Below, one piece after another: positions 22,163-38,120 of a stretch of DNA of 64,000 nucleotides. Each line of letters opens with the position of its first letter. The first letter of the stretch is position 1. The stretch covers positions 92,632 to 156,631 of the forward strand of contig NZ_QYYD01000013.1 in assembly GCF_003591005.1 (NCBI RefSeq), given 5' to 3'. A model generated the notes under the pieces. The model ran no database searches, was not told where the DNA came from, and saw nothing but the letters and a program-made list of their open reading frames with translations. Origin of the DNA: Rhodopseudomonas palustris (GTDB taxonomy: Bacteria; Pseudomonadota; Alphaproteobacteria; Rhizobiales; Xanthobacteraceae). The translations under genes and the position numbers were made by a program.

Positions 22163-22204
22163 GGCGGGGCCTGCAACATGGTGAAAGCCTCCCAATGCTC
22201 GACA

Positions 22205-22229
22205 AACGTCAAACCAGCGTGCCGGTTCC
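22205..22229 (-). promoter_or_regulatory. EcfG-type (general stress sigma) promoter
   Basis: On the minus strand GGAAC is followed after 16 nt by CGTT, the exact alphaproteobacterial EcfG consensus. It reads into the Crp/Fnr gene whose start is placed at 22162. Transcription would begin near 22198, which rules out the longest possible reading frame as the real start. Confidence 0.7.
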
Positions 22230-22276
22230 CGAGAAGCTTCGGTCGATCCTCTATCTCATTCGCCGCCGCCGCGGCC

Positions 22277-23137
22277 TCAGATAAACGGTCGGCCGCCGGT
22301 GACCGCCACCGTCGTGCCCGACGTGTAGCTCGACAGCGGATCCGCCAGCATGACATAGGCCGTCGCCAGTTCGGCGGGCTGGCCGGCGCGTTGCATCGGC
22401 GTGTTCTTGCCGAAGTTCGACACTGTGTCCTCCTTCATGGTGGACGGGATCAGCGGCGTCCAGATCGGTCCCGGCGCGACGGCGTTGGCGCGGATGCCCT
22501 TCTCGGCCAACATCTGCGCGAGCCCCGCGGTGAAGTTCTGGATCGCACCCTTGGTGGTCGCATAGGCGAGCAGCGACGGGTTAGGCATATCGGAATTCAC
22601 AGAGGCGGTGTTGACGATGGCGCTGCCCGGCTTCATGTGCGGCACCGCGGCCTTGGTCAGATAGAACATCGCGTGGATGTTGACGCGGAACGTCAGTTCC
22701 CACTCCTCGTCGCTGATGTCGCCGATATCGCTGAAGGTTGCCTGATGAGCGGCATTATTGACCAGGATGTCGATCCCGCCAAATTCCTCGACCGCCTTCT
22801 GCACCACCGCCCTGCAATGATCGGCGCGTTGCAGATCGCCGGGGACCAGCACGGCCTTTCGGCCCTCCTGCTCGATCAGCGCTTTGACCTCGGCGGCATC
22901 GTCGTGCTCGTCGAGATAGGAGATCAGCAGGTCCGCTCCCTCGCGCGCATAGGCGATCGCGACAGCGCGGCCGATGCCGCTGTCACCGCCGGTGATCAAG
23001 GCGCTCAGGCCCTTCAGGCGTCCGGCCCCTTTGTAGCTCGACTCACCATGGTCCGGCCGCGGCTGCATCGCGGCGGTCACGCCCGGCATCGGCTGTTGTT
23101 GCTTCGGAAATGGCGGCTTGGGATAGAATGGTGGCAT
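22277..23137 (-). CDS. Short-chain dehydrogenase/reductase (YghA/GsiB-region type)
   Basis: A 286-residue SDR. A proline-rich N-terminal stretch (PPFYPKPPFPKQQQPMPG) of about 40 residues precedes the Rossmann fold. The dinucleotide motif is TGGDSGIGRA, followed by NNAA, the catalytic Ser region (NTASVNS) and the catalytic YxxxK (YATTKGA). The extension and motif style match the family that includes E. coli YghA and Bacillus general-stress oxidoreductases. The ATG is preceded by GGAG. A degenerate EcfG-like motif (GGAAC-N16-GATT, 23163-23187) lies 26 nt upstream. The substrate is unknown. Confidence 0.88.
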   Translation of the reverse strand: MPPFYPKPPFPKQQQPMPGVTAAMQPRPDHGESSYKGAGRLKGLSALITGGDSGIGRAVAIAYAREGADLLISYLDEHDDAAEVKALIEQEGRKAVLVPGDLQRADHCRAVVQKAVEEFGGIDILVNNAAHQATFSDIGDISDEEWELTFRVNIHAMFYLTKAAVPHMKPGSAIVNTASVNSDMPNPSLLAYATTKGAIQNFTAGLAQMLAEKGIRANAVAPGPIWTPLIPSTMKEDTVSNFGKNTPMQRAGQPAELATAYVMLADPLSSYTSGTTVAVTGGRPFI

Positions 23138-23208
23138 ATCGGTCTCCAATGATCGCTGCACCAATCGATCACGGCGCGGGTCGTTCCGTCCGCGGCGAAC
23201 GGCGCGGT

Positions 23209-23934
23209 TCAATCCATCAATCGCTGCAAGCGCAACGCATCCAGCGGCGCGGCGCTCTTCTGGTCGTTGTCGAAATAGACGTAAACGTCGTGGCCGCGGC
23301 GGCGCCACGCTGCGATCGTGTTGGCCCAGCTCTGCAATGCGGCGCGGCTGTAGTGACCGTGATAGCGGCCGCCTGGACCATGGCCGCGGACATAGACAAA
23401 ATCGGCTGTCCGCTTCCAGGGTGCCGGGGCATCGTGGTGATCGGACAGACACAGCGAGGCGTTGGCCCGCCGCAAGACGCGGAGAATATTCGGCGCGTAC
23501 CAGCTCGGGTGACGAAATTCGAATGCGTAGCGCCGTCGCGGCGACAGCATCTCGACGAACGCGGCCAGACGCTGTTCGTCCGCGCTGAACTGCGGCGGCA
23601 ACTGAAACAGGATCGGCCCGGCTTTGTCGCCGAGCAGGCTGATGCGGTCCTCAAGCAGCTCAAGGCTGTTGAGGCTGGCCGCCGACAACCTCTTCCAATG
23701 CGTGATGAACTTGGAGGCCTTCCAGGCGAACACGAAATCCTCGCCCGTGGTATCACGCCAGCCCTTCACCGCTTCCGGCGTCGGCGTGCGATAGAATACA
23801 CCGTTGAGTTCAGCCGAGCCGAACTGGCTGGCGTAGTATTGCAGCTGCCGGTTCAACGGCAGCCCGTCGGGAAAGAATGGACCTCGCCAGGATGGGTACG
23901 ACCATCCCGACGTGCCGATCCGGACGCGCGCCAT
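23209..23934 (-). CDS. DUF72 family protein (YecE-like)
   Basis: A 241-residue TIM-barrel protein of the DUF72/YecE family. Its signature features are the N-terminal RIGTSGWSYPSWRGPFFP, ELNGVFYRTPTP, FQLPPQF near residue 110 and AFEFRHPSW near residue 140. The C-terminal VYVYFDNDQKSAAPLDALRL is also typical. The biochemical role of the family is undefined. It follows the alcohol dehydrogenase gene by 13 nt and is likely in the same transcript. Confidence 0.88.
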   Translation of the reverse strand: MARVRIGTSGWSYPSWRGPFFPDGLPLNRQLQYYASQFGSAELNGVFYRTPTPEAVKGWRDTTGEDFVFAWKASKFITHWKRLSAASLNSLELLEDRISLLGDKAGPILFQLPPQFSADEQRLAAFVEMLSPRRRYAFEFRHPSWYAPNILRVLRRANASLCLSDHHDAPAPWKRTADFVYVRGHGPGGRYHGHYSRAALQSWANTIAAWRRRGHDVYVYFDNDQKSAAPLDALRLQRLMD

Positions 23935-23947
23935 CGAGAGGCCGCAC

Positions 23948-25117
23948 TCAGGGCTTCATGACCACCTTGATGCAGCCGTCCTTCTTGTCGCGGAACGTCT
24001 TGTACAGCTCCGGGCCCTCTTCCAGCGTGGCACGGTGGGTGATCACGAAGCTCGGATCGATTTCGCCCCTCTCCACGCGGCCGAGCAATTGCGGCAGATA
24101 ACGCTGCACCGGCGTCTGCGCCATGCGGAAAGTCAGCCCGCGGTTGATAGCCGAGCCCATCGGGATCTTGTCGAGCAAACCGCCATACACACCGACGATC
24201 GACACAGTGCCGAAGTTGCGGCAGCAATGGATTGCCTGCCGTAGCACATGCGGCCGATCAGTGCCCATGAAGGTCGCCATCTTGACGCGGTCGACCACGG
24301 CGTCGAAGCCGGACGCGGTGTCGGGCTCGGTGCCGACAGCGTCGATGCAGGCGTCAGCGCCGCGGCCGTTGGTGAGATCCTGAATACGGTCGTAGACATC
24401 CTCATCGCGGAAATCGATCGTGATCGCGCCCGAAGCACGCGCCATTTCCATCCGCTCCGGCACCGTGTCGATAGCGATTACCCGCTCTGCGCCGAGCATG
24501 AAGGCGCTCTTGATCGCAAACTGCCCGACCGGCCCGCAGCCCCAGATCGCGACGGTTTCTCCGCCCTTCAGATCGCAGAAGTCCGCTGCCATGAAGCCGG
24601 TCGGGAAGATGTCGGACAGAAACAGCACCTGCTCGTCGCTCAGCCCGTCCGGAACCTTGATCGGCCCGACGTCCGCATAGGGCACCCGCATATACTCGGC
24701 CTGCCCGCCGGCGTAGCCGCCGAGTAGATGCGAGTAGCCGAACAGGCCGGCGGGCGAGTGGCCCCACATGGTTTCAGCCTTCTTCTTGTCGGGATTCGAG
24801 CGCTCGCAGCCGCTGTAGAAGCCGCGCTGGCAGAAGAAGCACTCACCGCAGGAGATCGTGAACGGCACGACGACGCGGTCGCCGACCTTCAGCTTCTTGT
24901 TGTCGGCACCGACCTCGACGACTTCACCCATCGTCTCGTGCCCGAGGACGTCGCCGCTGCGCATCTCGGGCATCACCCCATCGAACAGATGCAGATCCGA
25001 GCCGCAGATCGCGCAGGCGGTCACCTTGATGATGGCGTCACGGCCGTGCTCAATCTTCGGATCCGGTACGCTCTCGCACCGGATGTCGCTCTTGCCGTGC
25101 CAGGTCAGCGCCTTCAT
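23948..25117 (-). CDS. Zinc-dependent alcohol dehydrogenase (FdhA-like)
   Basis: A 389-residue medium-chain zinc dehydrogenase. Catalytic-zinc residues are in [13 protein letters not shown] and [10 protein letters not shown]. The structural-zinc loop has cysteines in [15 protein letters not shown]. The NAD-binding motif is [19 protein letters not shown]. Length and sequence style match the glutathione-independent formaldehyde-dehydrogenase-like branch, so oxidation of formaldehyde or a short alcohol is plausible but not shown. The ATG at 25117 has GGAG at good spacing; the frame upstream is not needed. It is co-directional with DUF72. An imperfect GGAAC element lies near 25168-25172. Confidence 0.88.
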
Positions 25118-25300
25118 GGTGATCTCCGCTCGTGTGTTGCGCCTGACAAACATCACAGCTGTTAGTGGTTCCTAACGAAGCGCAGCGGCGACATTGGCCC
25201 GCTGCGCTGCGATGCAGCTCTGCACGATGGTTGCGCTTTCAAGAATGCAGGCAGCGGCGGGCTCCGCGTCGTTCAGTCCGCCGCACGATCCGTTCGGATT

Positions 25301-25325
25301 GGAACTCGGCCATTGGCTCTCCGTT
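25301..25325 (+). promoter_or_regulatory. EcfG-type promoter upstream of DUF4142 gene
   Basis: GGAAC (25301-25305) is followed by exactly 16 nt and CGTT (25322-25325), a perfect EcfG consensus. It lies 94 nt before the ATG of the DUF4142 gene. The rest of the 300-nt divergent gap 25118-25418 holds no other recognisable element. Confidence 0.72.
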
Positions 25326-25418
25326 GAGCCCCAAACCGGGTGGGTTGCAAGCCGGCTGAGTTCAGCTTCGGCAAGGCATCAGCACCGTTGTCAGTGACAG
25401 GCAAGACAAGGATTCTCA

Positions 25419-25976
25419 ATGAAGACGACCACGGCTCTTGTTCTCAGCTGCTTCATGATCGCAGCTCCTCCTTTGGTGCAGACGGCCGCGGCTCAATCCA
25501 GCGCCGCGCAGGCGCCCGCCATCAGCCCCGCAACGCAGCAATTCATTACCCAGGTGGCGATCTCCGATCTCTTCGAGGTCGCCTCGTCGCGGCTGGCACT
25601 GGCGCGCGGCACCGAGGGGCAGAAAGCTTTCGCCAACCAAATGATAGAAGACCACGGCAAGACTTCGTCAGAGCTGCGCCAGCTGATCGTCGTTCGCGGG
25701 TTGAAGGTCGATATCCCGAGTCAGCTCGACAGCGCCCATCAGGACAAATACGACCAGCTGAACAACGCCCGTGGTAACGATTTCCAGGCGCTCTATGCCA
25801 GCCAGCAGGTCGCGGCGCACAAAGATGCGATCGCGTTGTTCCAGCGTTATGCGCAAAACGGGGATTTGCCGGAGTTGAAGGATTGGGCCGGCAAGACTCT
25901 CCCGGCGCTGAAGCATCATCTGGAGATGGCTCAGAAGCTAGGCGCTGCCGCACCAGCAGCGCCAGCCGCCAAATAA
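25419..25976 (+). CDS. Exported DUF4142 protein
   Basis: A 185-residue periplasmic protein. A signal peptide (1-25, ending AAAQS) precedes the helical DUF4142 domain, a ferritin-like bundle with the pattern FITQVAISDLFEVASSRLAL ... FANQMIEDHGKTSSELR. The C-terminus is Ala/Pro rich. Members of this family are often stress-induced in rhizobia; no enzymatic role is known. Control by an EcfG promoter at 25301-25325 fits this. The ATG follows a purine-rich stretch (AAGGATTCTCA). Confidence 0.85.
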   Translation: MKTTTALVLSCFMIAAPPLVQTAAAQSSAAQAPAISPATQQFITQVAISDLFEVASSRLALARGTEGQKAFANQMIEDHGKTSSELRQLIVVRGLKVDIPSQLDSAHQDKYDQLNNARGNDFQALYASQQVAAHKDAIALFQRYAQNGDLPELKDWAGKTLPALKHHLEMAQKLGAAAPAAPAAK

Positions 25977-25980
25977 CGAC

Positions 25981-26014
25981 CCGGCCACCCCGTCTAAAAG
26001 GATCGGGTGGCCGG
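25981..26014 (+). terminator. Possible stem-loop terminator after DUF4142 gene
   Basis: Perfect 10-bp arms CCGGCCACCC and GGGTGGCCGG are separated by 14 nt, starting 5 nt after the DUF4142 stop. No T-tract follows, so it may be a weak terminator or an RNA-stabilising hairpin rather than a full Rho-independent terminator. Confidence 0.45.
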
Positions 26015-26051
26015 CGGTCGGCCGGGCACCCTCATGCTCGAGGACTACGCG

Positions 26052-26216
26052 ATGTCATACGACCCCACTAAGTCGATCGATCTGATCCATCATCTGCGCG
26101 AAGCGCTGGAGCTCGCCCGCGAGCTGAAATTTTCCCATCTCGAGTATCTGCTGTCGATGGCCGAACTCGAAAGCCGCGATCGTCTCGGTAAGACGGTGAC
26201 CGACGGCAGTGCATGA
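26052..26216 (+). CDS. Small acidic helical protein, unknown function
   Basis: A 54-residue protein (begins MSYDPTKSIDLIHHLREALE). A single amphipathic helix with repeated Leu and Glu/Arg predominates. The ATG at 26052 is preceded by GAGGA at 7-nt spacing, supporting translation. No family is recognised. It lies 75 nt after the DUF4142 gene and may share its stress-controlled transcript. Confidence 0.6.
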   Translation: MSYDPTKSIDLIHHLREALELARELKFSHLEYLLSMAELESRDRLGKTVTDGSA

Positions 26217-26277
26217 CGTCGGGCACTGCTCCGCCGTGTTCCCTATCCCCCCCTGACAAGCAGCGACTCGCAGCAGC

Positions 26278-26362
26278 GCTCCGCCGATCCGGGATGCCGG
26301 TCGCTTATGCCGTGCCGTGCGGCTGACTAAGCAGCGCAAGAGCGGGCCCGGATCGGCGGAGC
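26278..26362. repeat. 16-bp perfect inverted repeat with 53-nt loop
   Basis: GCTCCGCCGATCCGGG (26278-26293) is repeated exactly in inverted form at 26347-26362. The element sits in a 255-nt gap between convergent genes. It resembles neither the REP-like families elsewhere in the window nor a classical terminator, as no T-run follows. Confidence 0.6.
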
Positions 26363-26471
26363 ATCACGCCGCGAGCGGTGTTATGCTCCTTGTCCTGGGC
26401 ACTATGAGACTACACGCGGACTCAGTGGCTGCGAGCCGCAGCCGCAGCTTGCGCTGGCAGGTGTTCCAGCT

Positions 26472-27107
26472 TCAAGCCAGGCGGAACGGGATGTCGCGCC
26501 CCGGCTCCCACAGGCCGAATAGATCACTGACCGACACAAGGTCGATCTGCTCGTGAAAGCGGGTGCGATACATCGTCATCAGCGCGTCATGGCCCGGGTC
26601 CGACGAACTACACAACGCATCTTCGACCAGCGCCACCCGATAACCAAGATCGACCGCGTCCAGCACGGTGGCCAGAACACAGACGTCGGTTTCCGCGCCG
26701 GTGAACACCACGGTGCCGACGCCGAGCTGGTTCAGCATCGCCGCCAGACTGGATTGCTTGAAAGCGGAATACACCGGCTTGTCGATCACCAGCGCCGGCG
26801 GCGTTAGCCGAGCGAGTTCGGGCACGAGATCGAGCTGCTCCGGCGGAAGGTGTTGCTGCGTTGCGGCCTCCCAGCGGTGATAATAGCGCCGCCAGCGGCC
26901 GTTGCAGTCCTCGGCGCGGTGCGGTGGAATGAACCGCGTGAAGATCGTGCGGTCGCGATAACGCGATGCGACCTCAGTGATCGCGGGGCCGACGCGCGAT
27001 ATCCACGGCGTCTCCCACACTCCGCCGGTGCAAAAGATTCGCTGCATATCGATGCACAGATGGGCCGCCTGGCTGATCGGCTCCACAGTCTCGATCGATT
27101 TTGTCAT
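26472..27107 (-). CDS. Isochorismatase-family cysteine hydrolase
   Basis: A 211-residue cysteine hydrolase, distinct from the one at 7.5 kb. The catalytic Asp is in LCIDMQRIFC (near residue 20), the Lys in VIDKPVYSAF (near residue 110) and the nucleophilic Cys in GAETDVCVLATVLDAVDLGY (near residue 145). The complete triad suggests activity. Relatives act on nicotinamide, isochorismate or other amides; the substrate is unknown. The ATG overlaps the stop of the SPW gene (ATGA), so the two form an operon expressed from the EcfG-like promoter at 27507-27531. Confidence 0.87.
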   Translation of the reverse strand: MTKSIETVEPISQAAHLCIDMQRIFCTGGVWETPWISRVGPAITEVASRYRDRTIFTRFIPPHRAEDCNGRWRRYYHRWEAATQQHLPPEQLDLVPELARLTPPALVIDKPVYSAFKQSSLAAMLNQLGVGTVVFTGAETDVCVLATVLDAVDLGYRVALVEDALCSSSDPGHDALMTMYRTRFHEQIDLVSVSDLFGLWEPGRDIPFRLA

Positions 27108-27475
27108 GGCATGTCGGGACGGATAGGATGAGGAGACGCGTTCGGCCGGCGCTCGGTAATCAGTACCAGCAGCAATGCCAGCGCCCCGACGACCGCCGAC
27201 GCCCAAGCGAAGGCGCCGAGTTCAAGCGTGGCGGCGAGCACCAACATTGCGGCGCCGAACACAGCGTCCAGCGTCAGATGGATCGGCATCGGCAGCAGGC
27301 CCACTGCGCCCCATTCGTAATCAGTAACCAGGCTGTAGCCGATGCCGAGAAAGCCCAGCGTGACAAAGCACCAGCGCGCTCCGCCCTGCCACCCCGCCAG
27401 AAACGGCAGCGCGATCACCAGCGCCGACACCAGGTAGTCCAACAGGCCGTGCCATTTGGTAGGCAGACGCCGCAA
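27104..27475 (-). CDS. SPW-type small membrane protein
   Basis: A 123-residue protein with four predicted helices. It begins with the SPW-family segment HGLLDYLVSALVIALPFLAG and later has MPIHLTLDAVFGAAMLVLAA, a partial repeat of the first half. Proteins of this type are common in stress-inducible loci of rhizobia; no activity is known. It is the first gene of the two-gene unit with the isochorismatase-family hydrolase. Its start lies 32 nt after an EcfG-like -10 element. Confidence 0.8.
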   Translation of the reverse strand: MRRLPTKWHGLLDYLVSALVIALPFLAGWQGGARWCFVTLGFLGIGYSLVTDYEWGAVGLLPMPIHLTLDAVFGAAMLVLAATLELGAFAWASAVVGALALLLVLITERRPNASPHPIRPDMP

Positions 27476-27506
27476 ACCTCTGTCTCCTTCTCAGCAAGCG
27501 ACATCC

Positions 27507-27531
27507 AACCCGTGGCCCCTGGCGGTGTTCC
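27507..27531 (-). promoter_or_regulatory. EcfG-like promoter for the SPW-hydrolase operon
   Basis: On the minus strand GGAAC is followed by 16 nt and GGTT. It is arranged back to back with the plus-strand EcfG promoter at 27555-27579, giving a divergent stress-promoter pair separated by 23 nt. Confidence 0.6.
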
Positions 27532-27554
27532 AAAGGCGATCCGGACCGACGTTT

Positions 27555-27579
27555 GGAACATGGCCACGGCGGCGCCGTT
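27555..27579 (+). promoter_or_regulatory. EcfG-type promoter for the 27604-29078 unit
   Basis: GGAAC (27555-27559), 16-nt spacer, CGTT (27576-27579): an exact match to the EcfG consensus. The ATG of the downstream gene follows 24 nt later, with a strong AAGGAG ribosome site in between. Confidence 0.72.
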
Positions 27580-27603
27580 GGCAGGCGAAACAAGGAGATC
27601 GCA

Positions 27604-28023
27604 ATGACCAAAGCTTCGCTGCAGATGACATCCTCCGAAGCGCGAGGGCTGGCTCGTGCGCTCGGCTGGTTCTCGCTGGCGCTTGGCGCTGCCGAACTGA
27701 TTGCACCGCGCCGGATCACGCAGGCGCTGGGCATGCAGGGCAGCGAAGGCATGGTCCAGCTCTACGGGCTGCGCGAAATCGCCAGCGGCGTCGCGATCCT
27801 CTCGACCGAGTCCGCGACCTCGGTCTGGAGCCGGGTAGCCGGCGACGCGCTCGACCTCGGCACTCTCGGCATGCACCTCAGCAACGACAACAATAAGCAG
27901 GCCAACGTCGCGGCAGCCGTGGCCATGGTGGGCGGCGTTACCCTGATCGACGCCGCTTGCGCGGCCAGTCTGTCCTCGATCGAGGCGCGCGAACAAACCG
28001 AAGCTCCGCGAGCGCTCAATTGA
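27604..28023 (+). CDS. Small membrane protein of unknown function
   Basis: A 139-residue protein with three to four hydrophobic segments (ALGWFSLALGAAELIAPRRI, GLREIASGVAIL and NVAAAVAMVGGVTLIDAACA). Similar segments occur at the N-terminus of membrane-anchored cyclase/dehydrase-like (SRPBCC) proteins of rhizobia, but no soluble domain is present here. The strong SD AAGGAG and an EcfG promoter 24 nt upstream support expression in stress. It is followed by the patatin gene after 53 nt, so they are probably co-transcribed. Confidence 0.72.
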   Translation: MTKASLQMTSSEARGLARALGWFSLALGAAELIAPRRITQALGMQGSEGMVQLYGLREIASGVAILSTESATSVWSRVAGDALDLGTLGMHLSNDNNKQANVAAAVAMVGGVTLIDAACAASLSSIEAREQTEAPRALN

Positions 28024-28076
28024 TCGGCGGCTTGCCGCGTGAATTCTCGGCACCCGCGGATGGCGGCTCCGCGGAT

Positions 28077-29078
28077 ATGACGACAGCTCTGGTGTTCGGC
28101 GGCGGACTCAGCCTTGCCGCCTATCACGGTGGCGCGTATCAGGCTTTTGCCGAGCGGCAGTTGCCGCTGCATTGGACCGCCGGCTCCTCCGCTGGTGCGG
28201 TCACTGCCGCACTGATCGCCGGCACCGCGCCGGACGAGCGCGTATTTCGCCTGCGCACTTTCTGGGGGATTGGGACAGAAGCGCCGAGCGCCGGCCCGTT
28301 CGCACATCTCGAAGGCTGGATGAGCGCTGTCCGTGCGCATGTGATCGGAGATCCGTCGCGTTTCTATCCGCGATTTCCGTCGCCGCGCTTTCACAGCCTG
28401 TATGATCTGACGCCGATGCGCCGGCGGCTCGCCCAACTGATCGACTTCGGCCGGCTCAACGGCGGCGAGGTTCGGCTGTGCATCGTGGCGACAGACGTCG
28501 TCAGCGGTGATCCCGTAGTATTCGACACCAGCACCACCCGCATCGAACTCGACCATGTGCTCGCCAGCTGCGGCTTCTTGCCCGAGTTCGCGCCCGTCAC
28601 CATCGGCCAGCAGACGTTGGTCGACGGCGGCTTGTCGCTGAACGCGCCGTTCGATCCAATCCTGCAGGCATCCACCGCCCCGCTGCGGCTGTTCGTACTC
28701 GATCTCTACGCCCGCGACGACGCGCCGCCGACCAGCCTCGAGGCCGCGCTCGAGCGTAAGAACGACCTCATCTTCGGCAACCAGACCTATCTTCGCCTCA
28801 AGGACAAGATCGCGATCAGGCGCCTTCAGCGCGAACTCGCCGGCAGCTCGAATGCAGACGACGAGATCTCGCTGCTCAGCTATCGGGCCGGATCCGACGA
28901 GCCAGGCCCCGAAAAGAGCTTCAACTTCTCCCGCCCCGCCCTCACGCGCCGCTGGTGCGCAGGCCGCATGGACATGGAGGCAGCGTTGCACAGCGACATC
29001 CGCGGGATCGATGGCCTGCGCGTCATCCGCCGCGATCCGTCGGCGGCACGGCCGGGCGCTCAGGCGGAAGCGCGTTGA
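28077..29078 (+). CDS. Patatin-like phospholipase
   Basis: A 333-residue patatin-family lipid acyl hydrolase. The oxyanion motif is GGGLSLAAYHGGAYQ (residues 8-22), the nucleophile elbow GSSAGAV (near residue 40) and the catalytic aspartate is in DGGLSLNAP (near residue 185), giving the Ser-Asp dyad. A C-terminal region with basic residues may bind membrane. It probably hydrolyses membrane lipids or acyl esters in the cytoplasm. The ATG 28077 is chosen because the domain starts there; the frame is open upstream in a shadow of the preceding gene. Confidence 0.87.
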   Translation: MTTALVFGGGLSLAAYHGGAYQAFAERQLPLHWTAGSSAGAVTAALIAGTAPDERVFRLRTFWGIGTEAPSAGPFAHLEGWMSAVRAHVIGDPSRFYPRFPSPRFHSLYDLTPMRRRLAQLIDFGRLNGGEVRLCIVATDVVSGDPVVFDTSTTRIELDHVLASCGFLPEFAPVTIGQQTLVDGGLSLNAPFDPILQASTAPLRLFVLDLYARDDAPPTSLEAALERKNDLIFGNQTYLRLKDKIAIRRLQRELAGSSNADDEISLLSYRAGSDEPGPEKSFNFSRPALTRRWCAGRMDMEAALHSDIRGIDGLRVIRRDPSAARPGAQAEAR

Positions 29079-29136
29079 CATTGTCGGCAAACAGGTTGTG
29101 GACCGCATAACGACCGCCGCGGTGCCGCAACTGCCT

Positions 29137-29201
29137 GCCATCGGGGCGATCAAGCCGGCACGGCAGAGAAGATGTCGTCCGCGGCTTTACGCCCCGATGG
29201 C
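29137..29201. terminator. Inverted repeat between convergent genes, possible bidirectional terminator
   Basis: GCCATCGGGGCG (29137-29148) pairs perfectly with CGCCCCGATGGC (29190-29201), with a 41-nt loop. It lies in the 143-nt gap between the convergent patatin and SDR genes. No T-tract is present, so termination is only a suggestion. Confidence 0.4.
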
Positions 29202-29221
29202 CGTCGTCGCCGCGTTCACGC

Positions 29222-30007
29222 TCAGCTCTTGGCCGTGCCTGGCTCCGCCATCTTGCGGTGCTGACTGGCCAGCGTCCCGGACGGCACCACATTGGCGGCC
29301 GCCGACATCACCTTGTTCTTCCAGCCGGTGACGACGTCGCCCTCGCCGCACATCATCGCGTCGAAGCCGAGCTGCGCAACCTCACCGGCGTCGTCCTTCT
29401 CGGCGGCTCCGACTGCGGTGTCGAGCATATCGGCACGGCGGAAAAAATCCGTCTCGGTCGCGCCGGGCATCAGGCAGGTCACCGTCACCGCGCTGTCCCT
29501 CAGCTCTTCGCGCAGCGCGAAGGAAAACGAATTCAGGAACGCCTTCGACGCATTGTAGACCGCCTGGAAGCTGCCCGGCGTGAAGCCGGCGATCGAACCC
29601 GTGATCAGGATACGGCCACTGTTGCGTCGGCTCATCTCGTTGCCGATACGATGGACCAGATATAGCGTCCCGACAACGTTGGTATCGACGACCTTGCGTG
29701 CCTCGGCAAAATTCTGATCGAGAAAGGAATGACCAAGTCCGCGGCCGGCGTTTGCTAACAGCGCATCGACCGGCCGGCCCTTCGCGGCCTCGCAGAGACG
29801 GTTGACGCCCTCCTCGGTAGCAAGATCGGTTTGCACCGTCTCGACAGAGACGCCGCTTGCGCGCAGATCGATCGCGGCTGTTTCGATCGCCGGCTCATCA
29901 GCCGCGATCAGCAAATCGAACCCCGCCTTCGCGCAGCACCGGGCCAGCTCGAGGCCGATTCCGGTCGACGCTCCGGTGACGATGGCGAAGGATCGTTGAT
30001 CTGTCAT
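29222..30007 (-). CDS. Short-chain dehydrogenase/reductase
   Basis: A 261-residue SDR of the DltE/YqjQ type. Motifs are TGASTGIGLELARCC (cofactor), LLANAG, the catalytic Ser in TGSIAGF and YNASKAF (YxxxK). The C-terminal part after residue 190 (GFDAMMCGEGDVVTGWKNKV) is typical of this branch. The substrate is unknown. The ATG at 30007 has GGAG 6 nt upstream; an in-frame ATG at 30019 is less well placed. An EcfG-like promoter lies 32 nt upstream. Confidence 0.88.
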   Translation of the reverse strand: MTDQRSFAIVTGASTGIGLELARCCAKAGFDLLIAADEPAIETAAIDLRASGVSVETVQTDLATEEGVNRLCEAAKGRPVDALLANAGRGLGHSFLDQNFAEARKVVDTNVVGTLYLVHRIGNEMSRRNSGRILITGSIAGFTPGSFQAVYNASKAFLNSFSFALREELRDSAVTVTCLMPGATETDFFRRADMLDTAVGAAEKDDAGEVAQLGFDAMMCGEGDVVTGWKNKVMSAAANVVPSGTLASQHRKMAEPGTAKS

Positions 30008-30038
30008 GTTGGGCTCCATGGTCGTAATGCCGCAAGCC

Positions 30039-30063
30039 AACCAGGCCCGACGCGACGCGTTCC
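30039..30063 (-). promoter_or_regulatory. EcfG-like promoter for the SDR gene
   Basis: On the minus strand GGAAC, 16 nt, GGTT. The -10 element ends 32 nt before the SDR start, the same distance as for the SPW gene. Confidence 0.6.
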
Positions 30064-30189
30064 TCGCATAGGAGCGCAGTGGTGATTCCGGTTCTGCTTC
30101 CACATCGCGGATGATGATCGCGGTCATTCAACGCGCACGATTCCCCACTGATTCACGGCCGAAGTGACATCCGGACGCGACAGCGAATA

Positions 30190-30214
30190 GGAACTCGTGA
30201 TGGGTGCGATGGTT
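30190..30214 (+). promoter_or_regulatory. EcfG-like promoter for the DUF378 gene
   Basis: GGAAC (30190-30194), 16-nt spacer, GGTT (30211-30214). The DUF378 ATG lies 28 nt downstream behind GGAGATCACC. Confidence 0.6.
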
Positions 30215-30241
30215 GGTCGGCGTCACTCATCGGAGATCACC

Positions 30242-30490
30242 ATGCGCATTCTTAACATCGTCACGCTTCTTCTCGTCATCGTCGGCGGCGTCAACTGGGG
30301 CTTGGTCGGCCTGTTTGATTTCGATCTCGTCACCGCGATCCTCGGTAACGGCGCGGCCGAAACCGCGACGTCGTCGGCCGCTGCCCGTATCGTCTACATT
30401 CTCGTAGCGCTGTCGGCCCTGTATCAGATTACGACGTTGACGCGCCTGTTGTCGACGCGCTCGGCCGCTTACGGCAGCAACACGTACTAA
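30242..30490 (+). CDS. DUF378 small membrane protein
   Basis: An 82-residue protein of the DUF378 family. Two transmembrane helices are present: ILNIVTLLLVIVGGVNWGLV, with the family hallmark GGxNWGLVG, and AARIVYILVALSALYQI. Acidic residues lie between them (FDFDLVTAILG). Its function is unknown; relatives are common and often stress-linked. The start at 30242 is set by GGAG and by the conserved N-terminus. EcfG-like promoter upstream. Confidence 0.88.
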   Translation: MRILNIVTLLLVIVGGVNWGLVGLFDFDLVTAILGNGAAETATSSAAARIVYILVALSALYQITTLTRLLSTRSAAYGSNTY

Positions 30491-30695
30491 GCGCAGACGC
30501 TGCAGCTAATGGATCGCGCCGATCAATTTCGCCGCATCGCCGGCAACGACCCGAGCGGCGCGATCTACTTTTTGCCGTGGCGCACCAGCTTCGCGGTGGC
30601 GCTCCGGTTCGGCCTGATCGGCCTGCAGCGCTGGCGGCTGTGCTACGAAATCCCGACCAGCGTGGTCTCGCCGGATCCGGAGCAGTGTGCCGCTT

Positions 30696-30848
30696 CGGCA
30701 GCGCGGCGGTGCCGCCCATCTTTTCGATCACCGCCAGCCATTGCTGCTGATGCATGGTGTCTCGCGCGATAATGAAGCGCAGCATGTCGCGCATGCCGGG
30801 GTCGGAGGTCACCGGCGCCAAGGTCAAGTAGTGATTAACATCAAATGA
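30696..30848 (-). pseudogene. Relic of a manganese catalase gene (C-terminal fragment)
   Basis: About 47 codons read through a segment that closely follows the di-manganese catalase core: SDPGMRDMLRFIIARDT followed by MHQQQWLAVIEKMGG, the region containing a metal-ligand His. No start codon, ribosome site or upstream domain exists, and downstream (towards 30500) the similarity is lost in all frames. The rest of an active enzyme of roughly 290 residues is missing, so this is a decayed remnant. The same frame is open up to 31073 only because it runs antiparallel to a real small gene. The remaining part of the gap (30491-30695) holds nothing recognisable. Confidence 0.6.
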
Positions 30849-30888
30849 GACAGGGTGCCGCGGCGCCCGCCTGTCGATTATAGAAGGG

Positions 30889-31116
30889 TCAGTGACTGCG
30901 CTGGGCTTCGTGGCGCAACCTATTGCGGATCGCCGCCGCCTGTCCTGCAGCTTCGAACTCGTGCAAGGTGCGCCCGCCCGCGCGAGCACACTCCGCAATC
31001 TGCGCCGCCACCCGCGCTCGCACCGCATGCTCCTGCCCGTTCGGCAGAGTTCCACACACCCGCTCCAGAGCAACTTCCATATTGGCCCGCGTCCGCGGAT
31101 CGAGATCGTCCGTCAT
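30889..31116 (-). CDS. Small hypothetical protein
   Basis: A 75-residue hydrophilic, helical protein (begins MTDDLDPRTRANMEVALERV). It has a conserved look to short Bradyrhizobiaceae proteins, with alternating Ala/Arg/Glu, and no known domain. GGAG precedes the ATG at a slightly long spacing. It lies just upstream of the catalase relic on the same strand and may once have been in the same unit. Confidence 0.6.
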   Translation of the reverse strand: MTDDLDPRTRANMEVALERVCGTLPNGQEHAVRARVAAQIAECARAGGRTLHEFEAAGQAAAIRNRLRHEAQRSH

Positions 31117-31272
31117 CTGACTTACTCCAGCAAGACACGCCGGCCCGCTCGGATGCGGGCCGCTCGCGGAAGAATAGCGCGAGGCAGATATCCGCTCTCT
31201 AACCTATGGCAAAATGGTGTCGAAATCCGCCTCGGGTTTGCCATTGGTTTTTCACGCCAGGCACGCTCCAAA

Positions 31273-31297
31273 GGAACACGGCTAACCACTCGGGGTT
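31273..31297 (+). promoter_or_regulatory. EcfG-like promoter upstream of malQ
   Basis: GGAAC (31273-31277), 16-nt spacer, GGTT (31294-31297). The GTG start of malQ is 96 nt downstream, giving a leader of about 90 nt. No other promoter is apparent in the 276-nt gap. Confidence 0.58.
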
Positions 31298-31392
31298 GTG
31301 ACAGCAAACGTCGAGACACCGATCGGAGGAGCACTGCGGCGCGTAGCTGCGGGCTCGACCGGCGAGCAGCTCCGACGTCGGCAGGAGCACTC

Positions 31393-33546
31393 GTGAACCC
31401 AACTCAAATCAAACGCCTTGCATCACGCTATGGCATCGCCCTCAGCTTCGAAGACGCCCGCGGCAACACCGTCGATACCGACCCCGAGGTGGCCCGCAAG
31501 CTGCTGATCAGCATGGGCGTGCTCGACCATGCTGGAACCACATTGCAGCCTGAGCAGCAGGCAATTCTGCCACCTGCCATCGTCGTACGCCCTGACCGCG
31601 CCGGCCGCATCGCGATCGACCTCGGCTGCGCGATCTCGGCGAGGCAGATCGAGTGGCAGCTCACCTTGGAAGACGGCAGCTCCCGCAGCGGCACTGCGGC
31701 GGTGGCGGCCGCCAACGCAGATGCAACAGCTCACCTGACGCTGCCGCAACTTCCGCATGGCTATCACCGGCTCGTGCTCGGTCATGCAGACGCCGCGACG
31801 ATGTTGATCGTGACACCGGGCGAATGCTGGCTGCCGGAGAGCTTTCGCCGGGACGAGCGGCGATACGGCCTGTCGCTCCAGCTGTATCTGCTGCGCTCTG
31901 CGAGCAATTGGGGAATCGGTGATTTCACCGATCTTCAGCACCTTGCCCGGCTCGCTGCCGCGCAAGGTTGCGACGTGCTCGGTTTGAATCCGCTGCATCA
32001 AATGTTTCCGGACAACCCGGAGCATGCCAGTCCCTATTCGCCCGCGAGCCGGCAATTCCTCAATGTGCTGTACATCGACGTCACCGCGATCGCGGAATAT
32101 CAACGATCCGCCGCCGCCCAGAAGCTTGTGCAATCCGCTCGCTTCCAGCAGCGGCTCGAGCAATGCCGGAAGACCTCGCAGGTCGACTACAGCAGCGTCG
32201 CCGATCTGAAGCTGCAAGCATTGCGACTGGTCCATGCCGACTTCCGCACCGCTGCCGACGCACAGCGCATCACCGACTATCAACGATTCGTCTCGACAGC
32301 CGGCGACGGCCTGCACAACGCCTCGTTGTTTCAAGCGCTGCGCGACCATTTCGCCGACACCGATCCATCGCAGGCCGATTGGCACCTCTGGCCGGAGGCG
32401 TACCACGCGGCGGATTCCGAGGGATCGCTGGCATTCGCGCGCGAGCACGCGGAGCAGATCGACTTCTACAACTGGACACAATGGGTCGCCGAGCAGCAGC
32501 TTGCCGCCGCTAAGGATGCCGCAACGGCAGCGGGCATGCAGGTCGGGCTCTATCTCGATCTCGCAGTTGGATGTGATCGCAGCGGGTCCGAGACCTGGGC
32601 GAACCCGGGCGATTACATGAACGCGGCCGAAGTCGGCGCGCCGCCCGACATCTTCAATCCAGCCGGGCAGAATTGGGGATTGCCGCCGCTCAATCCGGTC
32701 TCGCTAATCGCCGAGGGCTATCGTCCCTTCATCGATCTGCTCCGCGCGAACATGCGACATGGCGGGGGGCTGCGGATTGATCACGCCATGGGTCTCCAGC
32801 GGCTGTACTGCATCCCCGAAGGATCGCCGCCCTCCGCTGGCGCTTATGTGCACTATCCGGTGGCCGATCTGATCGGCATTCTGGCGCTTGAAAGCCAACG
32901 TCACCACTGCCTGGTCGTTGGCGAGGACCTCGGCACGGTGCCAACCGGCTTCCGGGAGCGCATGGAAGAAGCCAATATCCTGTCCTATCGCGTGTTGTTC
33001 TTCGAGGCCGACGGCGATGGTGAGTTCAAGCCGGCGACGAGCTATCCGCGTCTCGCCGTTGCGGTAGCAGGAAGTCACGATCTGCCGACGCTGCCGAGCT
33101 GGCTTTCGGGCAGCGACATCGACCTGAAAGATCAATTGGGCCTGTACCCGTCGGCCGAAGAAACCGAAAAGCAGCGGCAGTCGCGCCAGCGGGAGCGTCG
33201 TGCCGTTATGCGCGTCCTCGGTCTGGACGGATCGTCGCAGCAGATCACGCCCGATGTATTCTCGAACGCCGTGCATGGTTTTCTCGGCCGGACGCGCTCG
33301 CTGTTGGCGATGACGCAGCTCGATGATCTTCTGGGCGAGCATGATCCTGTAAACGTGCCAGCGACTTCGACCGAACATCCGAACTGGCGTCGCAAATACG
33401 CGTTACCCCTTGAACAGATCGAGCGTTCACGCGGATGGAGGCTTTTGGAAACATTGGCTGCGGGCCGTGCGGAGCCGGCGAACAACGGGCCGGACCGCGC
33501 CCGTTCGTCACTGCCTCCAGCTTCGGCCCTGCAGGGGGCCCGTTAG
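31393..33546 (+). CDS. malQ: 4-alpha-glucanotransferase (amylomaltase, GH77)
   Basis: A 717-residue enzyme that transfers alpha-1,4-glucan segments and works with glycogen and trehalose metabolism. After an N-terminal domain of about 150 residues (MalQ N-terminal beta-sandwich), the GH77 barrel shows LQLYLLRSASNWGIGDF, DVLGLNPLH and the nucleophile Asp in GLYLDLAVGCDRSGSETW. The acid/base Glu is in VVGEDLGTVP and the third carboxylate in GSHDLPTLPSWL. All catalytic residues are present. GTG start with GGAG at 7 nt. The open frame upstream is not used. The EcfG-like promoter suggests that glucan remodelling is part of the stress response. Confidence 0.94.
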   Translation: MNPTQIKRLASRYGIALSFEDARGNTVDTDPEVARKLLISMGVLDHAGTTLQPEQQAILPPAIVVRPDRAGRIAIDLGCAISARQIEWQLTLEDGSSRSGTAAVAAANADATAHLTLPQLPHGYHRLVLGHADAATMLIVTPGECWLPESFRRDERRYGLSLQLYLLRSASNWGIGDFTDLQHLARLAAAQGCDVLGLNPLHQMFPDNPEHASPYSPASRQFLNVLYIDVTAIAEYQRSAAAQKLVQSARFQQRLEQCRKTSQVDYSSVADLKLQALRLVHADFRTAADAQRITDYQRFVSTAGDGLHNASLFQALRDHFADTDPSQADWHLWPEAYHAADSEGSLAFAREHAEQIDFYNWTQWVAEQQLAAAKDAATAAGMQVGLYLDLAVGCDRSGSETWANPGDYMNAAEVGAPPDIFNPAGQNWGLPPLNPVSLIAEGYRPFIDLLRANMRHGGGLRIDHAMGLQRLYCIPEGSPPSAGAYVHYPVADLIGILALESQRHHCLVVGEDLGTVPTGFRERMEEANILSYRVLFFEADGDGEFKPATSYPRLAVAVAGSHDLPTLPSWLSGSDIDLKDQLGLYPSAEETEKQRQSRQRERRAVMRVLGLDGSSQQITPDVFSNAVHGFLGRTRSLLAMTQLDDLLGEHDPVNVPATSTEHPNWRRKYALPLEQIERSRGWRLLETLAAGRAEPANNGPDRARSSLPPASALQGAR

Positions 33547-33636
33547 CAGCGCACCCAGCCCTTTGCGGCCCTACGGCAAGAGCCGCCGATCAAATGGCTG
33601 ACGTCCGGCTGCGAACTGATTTGGAGCACCAGCAAG

Positions 33637-34356
33637 ATGGCCCATCCGTTTTTGCGTAAGCTACGCTTCGGCGCGCGCCTCACGCCGGAGGACGAAGCAG
33701 TGCTGACGAGTATCATCGAGCCGGCGCGACCGGTCCGTCAGCGCGAAGACGTCGCCGAAGAAGGTGTGCAGCCGAATGCTCTGCCGCTCATCGTTGACGG
33801 CTGGGCATGCCGCTACTCGACGCTGGCCAATGGTCAGCGCCAGATCATCTCGTTGTTCATTCCGGGCGATTTGTGCGAACCTTTCGGCATGCTGCCTCGC
33901 TTCATGGATCATTCGGTAGCCACGCTTACGCCGGTGCTGATGTCGCCGGTGCGTGTCGAGCGACTGAAATCCGCGGTGATCAGCAGTCCGCGCATCGACG
34001 AGGCGTTGTGGTGGGATCTCCTGGTTTCGACCGCGATCGATCGCGAACACCTCGTCAGCCTCGGCCGACGCACCGCCACCGAGCGACTCGGCCACCTGTT
34101 CTGCGAGCTGCATCTGCGCCTCGATATGGTCGGCCTCGTCGAGGGGATGAGTTACGAAATGCCCATAACTCAGGCTGATCTCGGCGATTTGCTCGGCCTT
34201 TCGATGGTCCACGTCAACAGATCGCTGCAGGAGCTGCGTCGCACCGGCCTGATGTCGTTGCGCGGTCGCCGCCTGACGATCAACAATCTCGATGGGCTGC
34301 GCGAGCTATCGTATTTCGACGAGGGCTACCTTCATCCGGAAGGCGCCAACGGATGA
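33637..34356 (+). CDS. Crp/Fnr-family transcription regulator
   Basis: A 239-residue regulator. It has an N-terminal effector barrel (ISLFIPGDLCEPFGMLPRF) and a C-terminal Crp-type HTH with recognition helix DLLGLSMVHVNRSLQELRR. There is no N-terminal cysteine cluster, so no Fe-S oxygen sensor. It is a paralogue of the regulator at 21.2 kb, with similar HVNR...LQ.LR helices but no long N-terminal extension. The next gene, an HWE-like kinase, begins 31 nt later. The effector is unknown. Confidence 0.87.
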   Translation: MAHPFLRKLRFGARLTPEDEAVLTSIIEPARPVRQREDVAEEGVQPNALPLIVDGWACRYSTLANGQRQIISLFIPGDLCEPFGMLPRFMDHSVATLTPVLMSPVRVERLKSAVISSPRIDEALWWDLLVSTAIDREHLVSLGRRTATERLGHLFCELHLRLDMVGLVEGMSYEMPITQADLGDLLGLSMVHVNRSLQELRRTGLMSLRGRRLTINNLDGLRELSYFDEGYLHPEGANG

Positions 34357-34387
34357 GCATGATCAGCAACCACCGCGGAGGCCGTGA

Positions 34388-35041
34388 ATGGCAGACGATG
34401 CTTTGGTGACCCGGATCGCGCAGCTGGAAGCCGACAACCACCGACTGCGCCGGCTGCTCGATCAGCAAGACGCACCCGGCGAGTTGCGCCATCGGCTGCG
34501 CAGCACGGTCGCCCTGCTCCGCATGATCATCCGCAAATCCGCCGAGAGCCGGACCGATCTCGACGCCTATATGGGATTGCTCGAAGATCGACTCGACGCG
34601 ATCGCGCGGGTGCAGGCGATCGCCGACGAAGAGGGCGTTATCGAGTTGCAGAAGCTGTTGACCGACGAGTTGCTGCACTATCGTCCACTCGACGACGTAC
34701 GCGTCCGGCTATCCGGCCCCGAGCTCGCCTTGCAGCCGCGGATGGGCCGCCTGTTCGCACTGGCAATCCACGAGCTCACCGTCAATGCCATCGAGCATGG
34801 CAGTCTCGGGAGTAGCACCGGCCGCGTCGAAATCGCCTGGCGCGTCGACGAAACCGGAGCGACGCCCACTCTGATCTTCGTCTGGAAGGAGCATGACGCG
34901 ACGCCCATCAACCAGCCGCAACGCGACGGTTTCGGCACCGAAGTTCTGACGCGGATGCTGGCATACGAAATTCGTGCCACGACTCGGCTGGATTTCGAGA
35001 GCGACGGGCTACGCTGTTCGATCCAGTTTCCGATGGGCTAG
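34388..35041 (+). CDS. HWE/HisKA_2-type histidine kinase without sensory domain
   Basis: A 217-residue protein made only of a coiled coil (ALVTRIAQLEADNHRLRRLL) and a kinase core. The phospho-acceptor His is in ELRHRLRSTVALLRMIIRK, an HRLxS-type HisKA_2/HWE motif. The N-box is AIHELTVNAIEHG, and the G-box region DGFGTEVLTRML is typical of the HWE family. No PAS, GAF or membrane segment precedes it, so its input must come from a partner. In alphaproteobacteria such kinases often feed the general stress response (PhyR/NepR/EcfG), but that link is inferred. It follows the Crp gene by 31 nt. Confidence 0.82.
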   Translation: MADDALVTRIAQLEADNHRLRRLLDQQDAPGELRHRLRSTVALLRMIIRKSAESRTDLDAYMGLLEDRLDAIARVQAIADEEGVIELQKLLTDELLHYRPLDDVRVRLSGPELALQPRMGRLFALAIHELTVNAIEHGSLGSSTGRVEIAWRVDETGATPTLIFVWKEHDATPINQPQRDGFGTEVLTRMLAYEIRATTRLDFESDGLRCSIQFPMG

Positions 35042-35227
35042 AGCAGGAGCACTCAAACCGGCGGGGTGCGGCCCCTTCTGCCGGCTTGCGGCCAACTTTT
35101 AAGGATTCCGCCAAAGCCAATGGCCGCGTTACGGGTCCCTCAGTCTCGAAATATAAACAGCTTGACGCCCTTGGCCGGCGCGGTGCGAAGGGCGGTTTGC
35201 TTCCGGGACATCCATTAGCATAGGTGA

Positions 35228-35479
35228 ATGCCGCCGAGGACGTACGCCGATAGCCTGTCCGAAATTACGGAAAGGGTCAGCGTGAAAAAACGTCGCAACA
35301 GAACCAAGCAGCAGTTGTCGCTCGAAGAGCGGCTGTCGTTGTGCTCCGAACGCTGGAAGCGCGAAGCCGAGCAGAGCGGCAGCAGCGAAATCCAGGGCGT
35401 CTGGCAGGAGCGCGCCCGATCGGCCGAGGCCGCCCGAGGAATGATTGCGTGGCTGCAAGAGCGCGAAGGCTCCCACTGA
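35228..35479 (+). CDS. Small basic protein, unknown function
   Basis: An 83-residue protein with a charged, helical, coiled-coil-like sequence (QQLSLEERLSLCSERWKREA). Two starts are possible: ATG 35228 and GTG 35282 (VKKRRNRTKQQ). The second lies in front of the conserved-looking part. No domain is recognised. It precedes the response-regulator gene by 39 nt. Confidence 0.5.
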   Translation: MPPRTYADSLSEITERVSVKKRRNRTKQQLSLEERLSLCSERWKREAEQSGSSEIQGVWQERARSAEAARGMIAWLQEREGSH

Positions 35480-35518
35480 CGCGCATCGACAACATCGGCG
35501 GCGCGGGGGAAACTCGCG

Positions 35519-35908
35519 ATGACGACTAACAAACCGCTGTCCGGCCTGCGTGTCCTGGTCGTCGAGGACGAATACTTCGTGGCCCAGGACGTCGCGATTG
35601 CGCTCGCGCAATGCGGTGCGCAGATTGTCGGGCCAGTCGCGACGCTTCCCGAGGCCATGGAATTGGCGCGCGAACCGCTCGACGCTGCGGTCTTGGACAT
35701 CAACCTTCGTGGCATGCTGGTTTATCCGCTGGCGGACCTCCTCGCCTCCCGCGGGGTCGCCCTGGTGTTCGCCACCGGCTATGGCGCGGCAGCCATTCCG
35801 GCCCGCTTCGAGCACATTCGGCGCTGCGAGAAGCCCGTGGAGATCGGTGAGATCTCTGCGGCCCTCTTTCCCGGCGGGCTATTTTGCTCCTCTGCCTTAC
35901 GGTCTTAG
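35519..35908 (+). CDS. Single-domain response regulator (CheY-like)
   Basis: A 129-residue receiver domain without output domain. The acidic pair is in VLVVEDEYFVAQDV (near residue 17), the phospho-acceptor Asp in AAVLDINLRGM (near residue 61), the Thr/Ser position in VFATGYG and the conserved Lys in CEKPVEI. It may relay phosphate between the HWE kinase and another protein. Lies between the HWE kinase and the PAS kinase genes. The last ten residues (LFCSSALRS) are not part of the fold. Confidence 0.86.
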   Translation: MTTNKPLSGLRVLVVEDEYFVAQDVAIALAQCGAQIVGPVATLPEAMELAREPLDAAVLDINLRGMLVYPLADLLASRGVALVFATGYGAAAIPARFEHIRRCEKPVEIGEISAALFPGGLFCSSALRS

Positions 35909-35946
35909 GCAATTGGCGGACGCTCACGATTTTTTTCCGATCCTTC

Positions 35947-35971
35947 GGAACAAAAGCTGCCCCAACGTGTT
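35947..35971 (+). promoter_or_regulatory. EcfG-like promoter for the PAS hybrid kinase
   Basis: GGAAC (35947-35951), 16-nt spacer, TGTT (35968-35971). The ATG at 35994 is 23 nt away. The -10 has one departure from CGTT, so this is the least certain of the set. Confidence 0.5.

Positions 35972-38044: not shown

Positions 38045-38120
<76 letters not shown>

Follow-up and report, generated by a model that had tools for sequence, protein, structure and literature searches.

A 64,000-base stretch of the 5.62-Mb genome of Rhodopseudomonas palustris (assembly GCF_003591005.1), part of contig C4 (NZ_QYYD01000013.1) and called the window below, carries a 17-kb block of genes in which many starts are preceded, between 22205 and 35971, by a short sequence resembling the promoter motif of EcfG, the extracytoplasmic function (ECF) sigma factor of the alphaproteobacterial general stress response. 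The site pattern is GGAAC-N16-nGTT, equivalent to GGAAC-N17-GTT; by 17-base distance we mean the distance from GGAAC to GTT. Genes were called with a simple codon-usage gene caller. The features of the block are as follows.

21188..22162, minus strand: crpA, Crp-family regulator (PF13545, PF00027); likely start ATG 22162 from the sequence, open reading frame (ORF) reaching TTG 22195
22205..22229, minus strand: EcfG-type site (CGTT) of crpA (pattern scan; site at G012 ortholog, 1/1)
22277..23137, minus strand: SDR1, SDR oxidoreductase (PF13561)
23209..23934, minus strand: DUF72 protein (PF01904)
23948..25117, minus strand: zinc alcohol/formaldehyde dehydrogenase-like gene, here ADH (PF08240, PF00107; TIGR02819 below cut-off)
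25149..25172, minus strand: predicted promoter of the ADH-DUF72-SDR1 operon, GGAAC-N16-GTT (pattern scan; present in G012)
25301..25325, plus strand: EcfG-type site (CGTT) of the DUF4142 gene (pattern scan; orthologs)
25419..25976, plus strand: DUF4142 protein with a signal-peptide-like start (PF13628; start chosen by eye)
26472..27107, minus strand: isochorismatase-like hydrolase (PF00857), overlapping the SPW gene
27104..27475, minus strand: SPW-repeat-like membrane protein (PF03779 below cut-off)
27507..27531, minus strand: EcfG-type site (GGTT) of the SPW gene (pattern scan; orthologs 4/4)
27555..27579, plus strand: EcfG-type site (CGTT) of gene 27604 (pattern scan; orthologs of at least 64% identity, 3/3)
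27604..28023, plus strand: gene 27604, conserved protein with no Pfam family (match in 8/61 genomes searched, own included)
28077..29078, plus strand: patatin-like phospholipase (PF01734)
29222..30007, minus strand: SDR2, short-chain dehydrogenase (PF00106)
30039..30063, minus strand: EcfG-type site (GGTT) of SDR2 (pattern scan; orthologs 4/4)
30190..30214, plus strand: EcfG-type site (GGTT) of the DUF378 gene (pattern scan; genus orthologs 8/8)
30242..30490, plus strand: DUF378 small protein (PF04070)
31273..31297, plus strand: EcfG-type site (GGTT) of malQ, probably serving the following genes too (pattern scan; malQ ortholog 1/1)
31393..33546, plus strand: malQ, 4-alpha-glucanotransferase, GTG start 31393 (PF02446)
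33637..34356, plus strand: crpB, Crp-family regulator (PF13545)
34388..35041, plus strand: HWE-family histidine kinase (PF07536, 1.8e-11, over cut-off)
35228..35479, plus strand: 83-aa protein, nearly confined to the genus (homolog searches)
35519..35908, plus strand: single-domain receiver with a FATGYG motif in its sequence (PF00072 below cut-off)
35947..35971, plus strand: EcfG-type site (TGTT) of the PAS hybrid kinase (pattern scan; G012)
35994..37886, plus strand: PAS-PAS hybrid histidine kinase with receiver (PF13426, PF02518, PF00072)

Exactly eight matches to GGAAC-N17-GTT were found in the window, all within the 13.8 kb at 22205-35971 and none in the other 50 kb; when the window was shuffled 100 times, the mean was 1.00 match and the maximum five. 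Three sites have CGTT as the −10 element, four GGTT and one TGTT. By the gene calls, 8/8 are noncoding and oriented toward a start. The last T lies 42 nt from the likely crpA start at ATG 22162 (9 nt if TTG 22195 is used), and the corresponding distances are 93 nt for DUF4142, 31 nt for SPW, 24 nt for 27604, 31 nt for SDR2, 27 nt for DUF378, 95 nt for malQ and 22 nt for the PAS kinase. The pattern scan thus reproduces all eight coordinates and −10 variants listed in the initial annotation, which had also placed every site in an intergenic gap aimed at the adjacent start and six of the −10 elements 20-45 nt from it, in agreement with the gene calls and the measured distances. Three genes, at 23137 (SDR1), 25117 (ADH) and 38922, had been described there as having no good site. 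This holds for 23137 and 38922, for which no site was found in this genome in a search that tolerated a single mismatch in GGAAC and a GTT 16-18 bases away. It does not hold for 25117, where a site one base shorter (GGAAC-N16-GTT, 25172-25149, minus strand) lies 31 nt upstream of the start. A possible six-codon leader, MLQAPP (22146-22195), overlaps the likely ATG start of crpA.

The genome contains a single NepR match, which adjoins an ECF sigma factor; PhyR, with sigma-like and receiver domains, is encoded divergently, the usual layout (Pfam searches). Near ecfG-phyR the same motif is found before an AI-2E transporter gene (by longest ORF), an L,D-transpeptidase gene and a 52-aa ORF that matches no Pfam family; of these sites, the L,D-transpeptidase site alone falls within 150 nt upstream of a called start. 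The sequence upstream of phyR, GGAACTTT...GCGTA, reads GGAAC-N16-CGTA, lies at L032:10410-10434 (C22:318409-318433) and is present in 16/16 genomes of the genus. An inverted AAAGTTCC faces it from a few bases farther upstream in 15/16 of these genomes. In the passages of the literature available to us, the EcfG motif is given as GGAAC-N16-CGTT in Rhizobium etli (PMC3892343) and Sphingopyxis granuli (PMC7083833) and as GGAAC-N17-20-GTT in Sphingomonas melonis (PMC6599016); the −10 element is described as mostly CGTT but flexible, with 14 kinds (PMC7083833).

Sites were then compared at orthologs in 20 stretches fetched from 12 congeneric genomes, chosen for holding orthologs of block genes, with other spacings as the control. 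A site was found upstream in 25 of the 28 ortholog cases for the eight genes, versus 2/28 for six control spacings together. The individual counts are 1/1 for crpA, 3/4 for DUF4142, 4/4 for SPW, 3/3 for 27604, 4/4 for SDR2, 8/8 for DUF378, 1/1 for malQ and 1/3 for the PAS kinase; the PAS kinase of G009 was scored as a miss by the script, yet a similar site precedes its shortened gene. The 20 stretches together contain 57 matches at the motif spacing (55 noncoding), versus 0-11 at each of 19 other distances (8 to 27). Orthologs of other block genes carry a site in 5/7 (crpB), 3/7 (SDR1, at 23137) and 1/4 (ADH) cases, and in none of the remaining 36.

All other genus orthologs of DUF378 (8/8) have a site whose end is 25-51 nt from the start, in one of them with an 18-base distance; a DUF378 match is missing in 7/16 genus genomes. 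Over seven distinct 25-base DUF378 sites the spacer identity averages 30%, and G follows GTT in 8/9. In the SPW/27604 intergenic region both divergent sites are kept in three relatives of at least 64% identity, each time as CGTT toward 27604 and GGTT toward SPW. For DUF4142, a site 77-129 nt upstream is present at 8/10 genus loci with at least 56% identity (own included) and at 3/15 with 46-52%, which makes 11/25 genus loci overall, own locus and paralogs counted. Homologs of the PAS kinase at 40-42% identity showed a site at 0/4 loci. The search for the patatin gene in the named genomes gave a single distant locus (41%) and was of no use. Other Rhodopseudomonas species keep a site in the corresponding positions, with drift in the spacer, and this conservation at orthologs is the strongest evidence for the putative EcfG-type promoters.

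We read the eight sites as predicted EcfG promoters and the block as a likely EcfG-regulon island whose genes would be switched on together under stress, with a probability of about 0.9. The same signature stands ahead of the genes and is found again at their orthologs, and therefore the block genes are likely co-activated by EcfG. EcfG control of the block, as proposed in the initial annotation, is supported by the ecfG-nepR-phyR locus, the match to the published motif, the concentration of sites in noncoding DNA and their conservation. A number of observations weigh against this assignment. Canonical CGTT is present in just 3/8 sites, and the phyR site, CGTA, is one base off nGTT. The ADH site, with its spacing one base short, departs from GGAAC and nGTT at 16-17 bases and is below the published range. 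Raw counts give no enrichment: genome-wide there are 128 matches and 123 to the reversed pattern, and in a background sample of 34 systematic 20-kb stretches (680 kb) of the contigs C1, C2 and C22 of the same genome, all matches at the 17-base distance number 11, versus a mean of 7.6 (maximum 18) at 17 other spacings. Sites are also missing at some relatives: at the DUF4142 ortholog in G002, at 12/15 of the distant DUF4142 genus loci (46-52%) and one further DUF4142 ortholog of 56%, at all five homologs of DUF378 in other genera (56-63%), and likewise at all four homologs of 27604 at 47-59%, one of which (G008) is in the same genus. The crpA and malQ sites have one ortholog each for comparison, the PAS kinase site is present in G012 and not in G008, and the ADH site is present in G012 and absent in G003, G004 and G011.

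The closeness of the 128 matches to the count for the reversed pattern is what would be expected if the cluster were an accident of a GC-rich genome. Noncoding matches in the 680-kb sample tell otherwise, with 8 at the 17-base distance versus a mean of 2.0 (maximum 6) at 17 other distances; at most 150 nt upstream of a start there are 4, versus a mean of 0.5 (maximum 3) at the 17 other distances. The genome-wide enrichment that had been suggested as a check is thus absent from raw counts (128 versus 123) and present among noncoding matches at the exact spacing (8 versus 2.0). The genome-wide signal is modest and restricted to the expected spacing and position; because raw counts held no signal here, the motif needs to be read together with exact spacing and noncoding position. 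A pooled background (18 noncoding in 786 kb) was rejected as inflated by six hand-picked stretches, mostly near matches, where 10/10 were noncoding; the unbiased count is 8 in 680 kb. A site (16-18 bases, at most 150 nt) precedes 8/18 called genes in the block, with ADH included and crpA left out since its called start lies too far in, 0/36 in the rest of the window and 5/572 in the sample. The block has 8 noncoding sites where about 0.16 are expected by chance, and the Poisson probability of so many within 13.8 kb is ~1e-11, or ~4e-9 after scanning the genome, the bounds of the 13.8 kb having been set post hoc. With the conservation in relatives added, an accidental cluster has a vanishingly small probability. 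A mixed case deserves more weight: the SPW, 27604, SDR2, DUF378, DUF4142 and malQ/crpB sites would be EcfG promoters, and at least one of the crpA, PAS kinase and ADH sites would be a chance match or decaying. The single crpA ortholog, the loss of the PAS kinase site in G008 and the absence of the ADH site in 3/4 orthologs all fit it, but with ~0.16 chance matches expected in noncoding DNA even one chance site among eight is improbable, and a similar PAS kinase site is kept in G009; we regard the mixed case as unlikely, though a good deal closer to the mark than chance for the whole cluster.

The sites could also be true promoters that serve a different ECF sigma factor whose −35 element is of the GGAAC type. 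A GGAAC −35 box is a common feature of ECF groups, and six further ECF-like matches are present in the genome, the best 39% identical to EcfG and the five others weaker. The best one (G000:C7:116850-117305, L177) matches sigma domains and PhyR_sigma2, and the protein beside it, with a zinc-finger match below cut-off, is a possible anti-sigma factor. Both elements and their spacing nevertheless equal the EcfG motif of other alphaproteobacteria, and the same motif recurs near ecfG-phyR, with the CGTA variant before phyR throughout the genus, so that such a factor is quite improbable as the reader of these sites.

If EcfG does control the block, the known pathway suggests the following course. 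Under stress, HWE/HisKA2 kinases would phosphorylate PhyR; phosphorylated PhyR would capture NepR and so release EcfG; and free EcfG would bind RNA polymerase and read GGAAC and nGTT. This partner switch, in which stress acts through kinase and PhyR to free EcfG from NepR, is presented as an established pathway in the parts of the reports considered here (PMC5898713, PMC7083833). In the block EcfG would start at least nine transcription units, the shorter-spaced ADH site counted. Their products would be partly protective (dehydrogenases, DUF4142, SPW, DUF378 and 4-alpha-glucanotransferase) and partly concerned with control (two Crp-type regulators, the HWE kinase, the FATGYG receiver and the PAS hybrid kinase), and the latter may in turn act back on PhyR.

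The content of the block differs between relatives. Contig C57 of G012 has almost all of the block in unchanged order; the PAS kinase is missing from it and lies on another contig. G011, G003 and G004 have many of the block genes in other orders. G009 has the same right flank, a tRNA-Lys followed, with ~7 kb more between, by LTXXQ and TRAP transporter genes; no orthologs of crpA, ADH, DUF72, isochorismatase through DUF378, or malQ were found in its fetched stretches. The relatives thus have promoter-dense blocks with shuffled gene content. The GC content of the block is 63.5%, versus 66.0 and 66.4%, and codon-usage scores are weak. Within 30509-30890 lie the degraded remains of two genes, both intact in G012 C57. 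One remnant, 66 aa at 70%, comes from an unidentified gene; the other, 38 aa at 89%, comes from a manganese catalase gene and is on the opposite strand here. In G012 the manganese catalase gene (PF05067, near full length) is preceded by an EcfG-type site of its own, 79 nt from the called start. A tRNA-Lys gene (38045-38120) is situated at the right edge of the block, and in G009 too it directly follows the PAS kinase. A second copy of the tRNA-Lys end, as a mark of an island, was looked for and none was found; Pfam scans revealed no integrase among those block genes that were scanned.

One group of control genes, overlooked in the initial annotation, recurs in several relatives. The genes for crpB, the HWE kinase and the 83-aa protein occur together in G003, G004, G009, G011 and G012, and also in G005, there on another contig whose available sequence begins inside crpB. 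The receiver gene adjoins the trio in G003, G009 and G012; in G004 and G011 a receiver homolog (52-54%) is ~2 kb farther, with a second kinase pair and another site in between. Of the group, G010 and G014 yielded just crpB and the 83-aa protein. A site of its own precedes crpB by 119-185 nt in G003, G004, G010, G011 and G014 (5/7 orthologs, within 300 nt), and in G009, which gave no malQ ortholog, a site resembling the malQ site is ~285 nt before crpB. Orthologs of the HWE kinase, the 83-aa protein and the receiver had no site within 300 nt in 16/16 cases. Because the trio co-occurs and the kinase, 83-aa protein and receiver have no site of their own, a single operon led by crpB and formed with the HWE kinase and the 83-aa protein fits the data; the receiver would be tied to it less firmly.

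The 83-aa protein belongs to no known family, has six orthologs in the fetched stretches and was matched in 6/149 family genomes sampled (own included), five in the genus and the sixth at E 9e-4; a set of 5.8 billion proteins gave five matches. The receiver (35519-35908) contains FATGYG, its Pfam receiver match being below cut-off; we take FATG(U)Y to be the motif that defines FAT GUY receivers. The kinase (34388-35041) has the HWE domain, and no sensor domain was found in it by Pfam scan. It reads HRLRS in place of HRxxN, the motif given for PhyR-activating HWE/HisKA2 kinases in the part of the source used (PMC5898713), and it is therefore not filed as such a kinase. The Crp-kinase-receiver group may feed back on PhyR. 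Going further, we tentatively picture an island for general stress whose single genes or short operons, all under EcfG promoters of their own, are acquired, lost and rearranged from one species to another; the group of Crp regulator, HWE kinase, 83-aa protein and FATGYG receiver would remain with it and act as an EcfG-driven feedback module tuning PhyR signalling. This larger picture is possible, at somewhat less than even odds. A specialist might be surprised by the clustering, by the regulatory group and by genes that turn over while keeping their promoters.

In comparison with the EcfG regulons of S. melonis, S. granuli and R. etli, as far as the consulted portions of those papers describe them, the −35 element, the spacing, the type of −10 element and the EcfG-NepR-PhyR locus are common to both, as are some kinds of target: a Crp-like regulator, a clustered 4-alpha-glucanotransferase and an HWE kinase. 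The S. melonis regulon is described as including a Crp-like gene and a trehalose cluster that depends on EcfG; this cluster contains a 4-alpha-glucanotransferase gene with a poorly scoring motif upstream of it (PMC6599016). An HWE kinase beside phyR2 is placed in the EcfG regulon (PMC7083833). Here, unlike there, many targets are in one block of a content that varies between species, and GGTT is about as common as CGTT in noncoding sites (12 and 12 of 30 in this genome; 26 and 17 of 54 in relatives). In noncoding sites G is favoured after GTT and, in relatives, A before GGAAC. Like the SdrG-type FAT GUY receivers and HWE/HisKA2 kinases, in the portion of the account seen (PMC5898713), the block has an HWE kinase by Pfam (34388) and a receiver with FATGYG (35519), both downstream of an EcfG-type site. 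It differs in having HRLRS and not HRxxN, no sensor domain found, a genus-restricted 83-aa protein in between and a Crp-type regulator heading the group.

A 2015 proteome study is said to have dealt with R. palustris and this sigma factor, and the regulon may be partly in print. Among the papers listed in a literature search by titles and abstract beginnings (10 of 374 and 10 of 34 in two of its lists), no title dealt with a Rhodopseudomonas EcfG regulon; one of these papers names RPA4225 (PMC5877347). R. palustris survives months of growth arrest, during which, according to the part of the report available, ecfG is up ~sevenfold (PMC13343836). The block, read as an EcfG-regulon island with predicted EcfG dependence, is ordinary in kind and has good support from the sequence. 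It offers a concrete list of candidate EcfG targets for the genus, including the uncharacterised DUF4142, DUF378, SPW and DUF72 proteins, together with a candidate feedback group.

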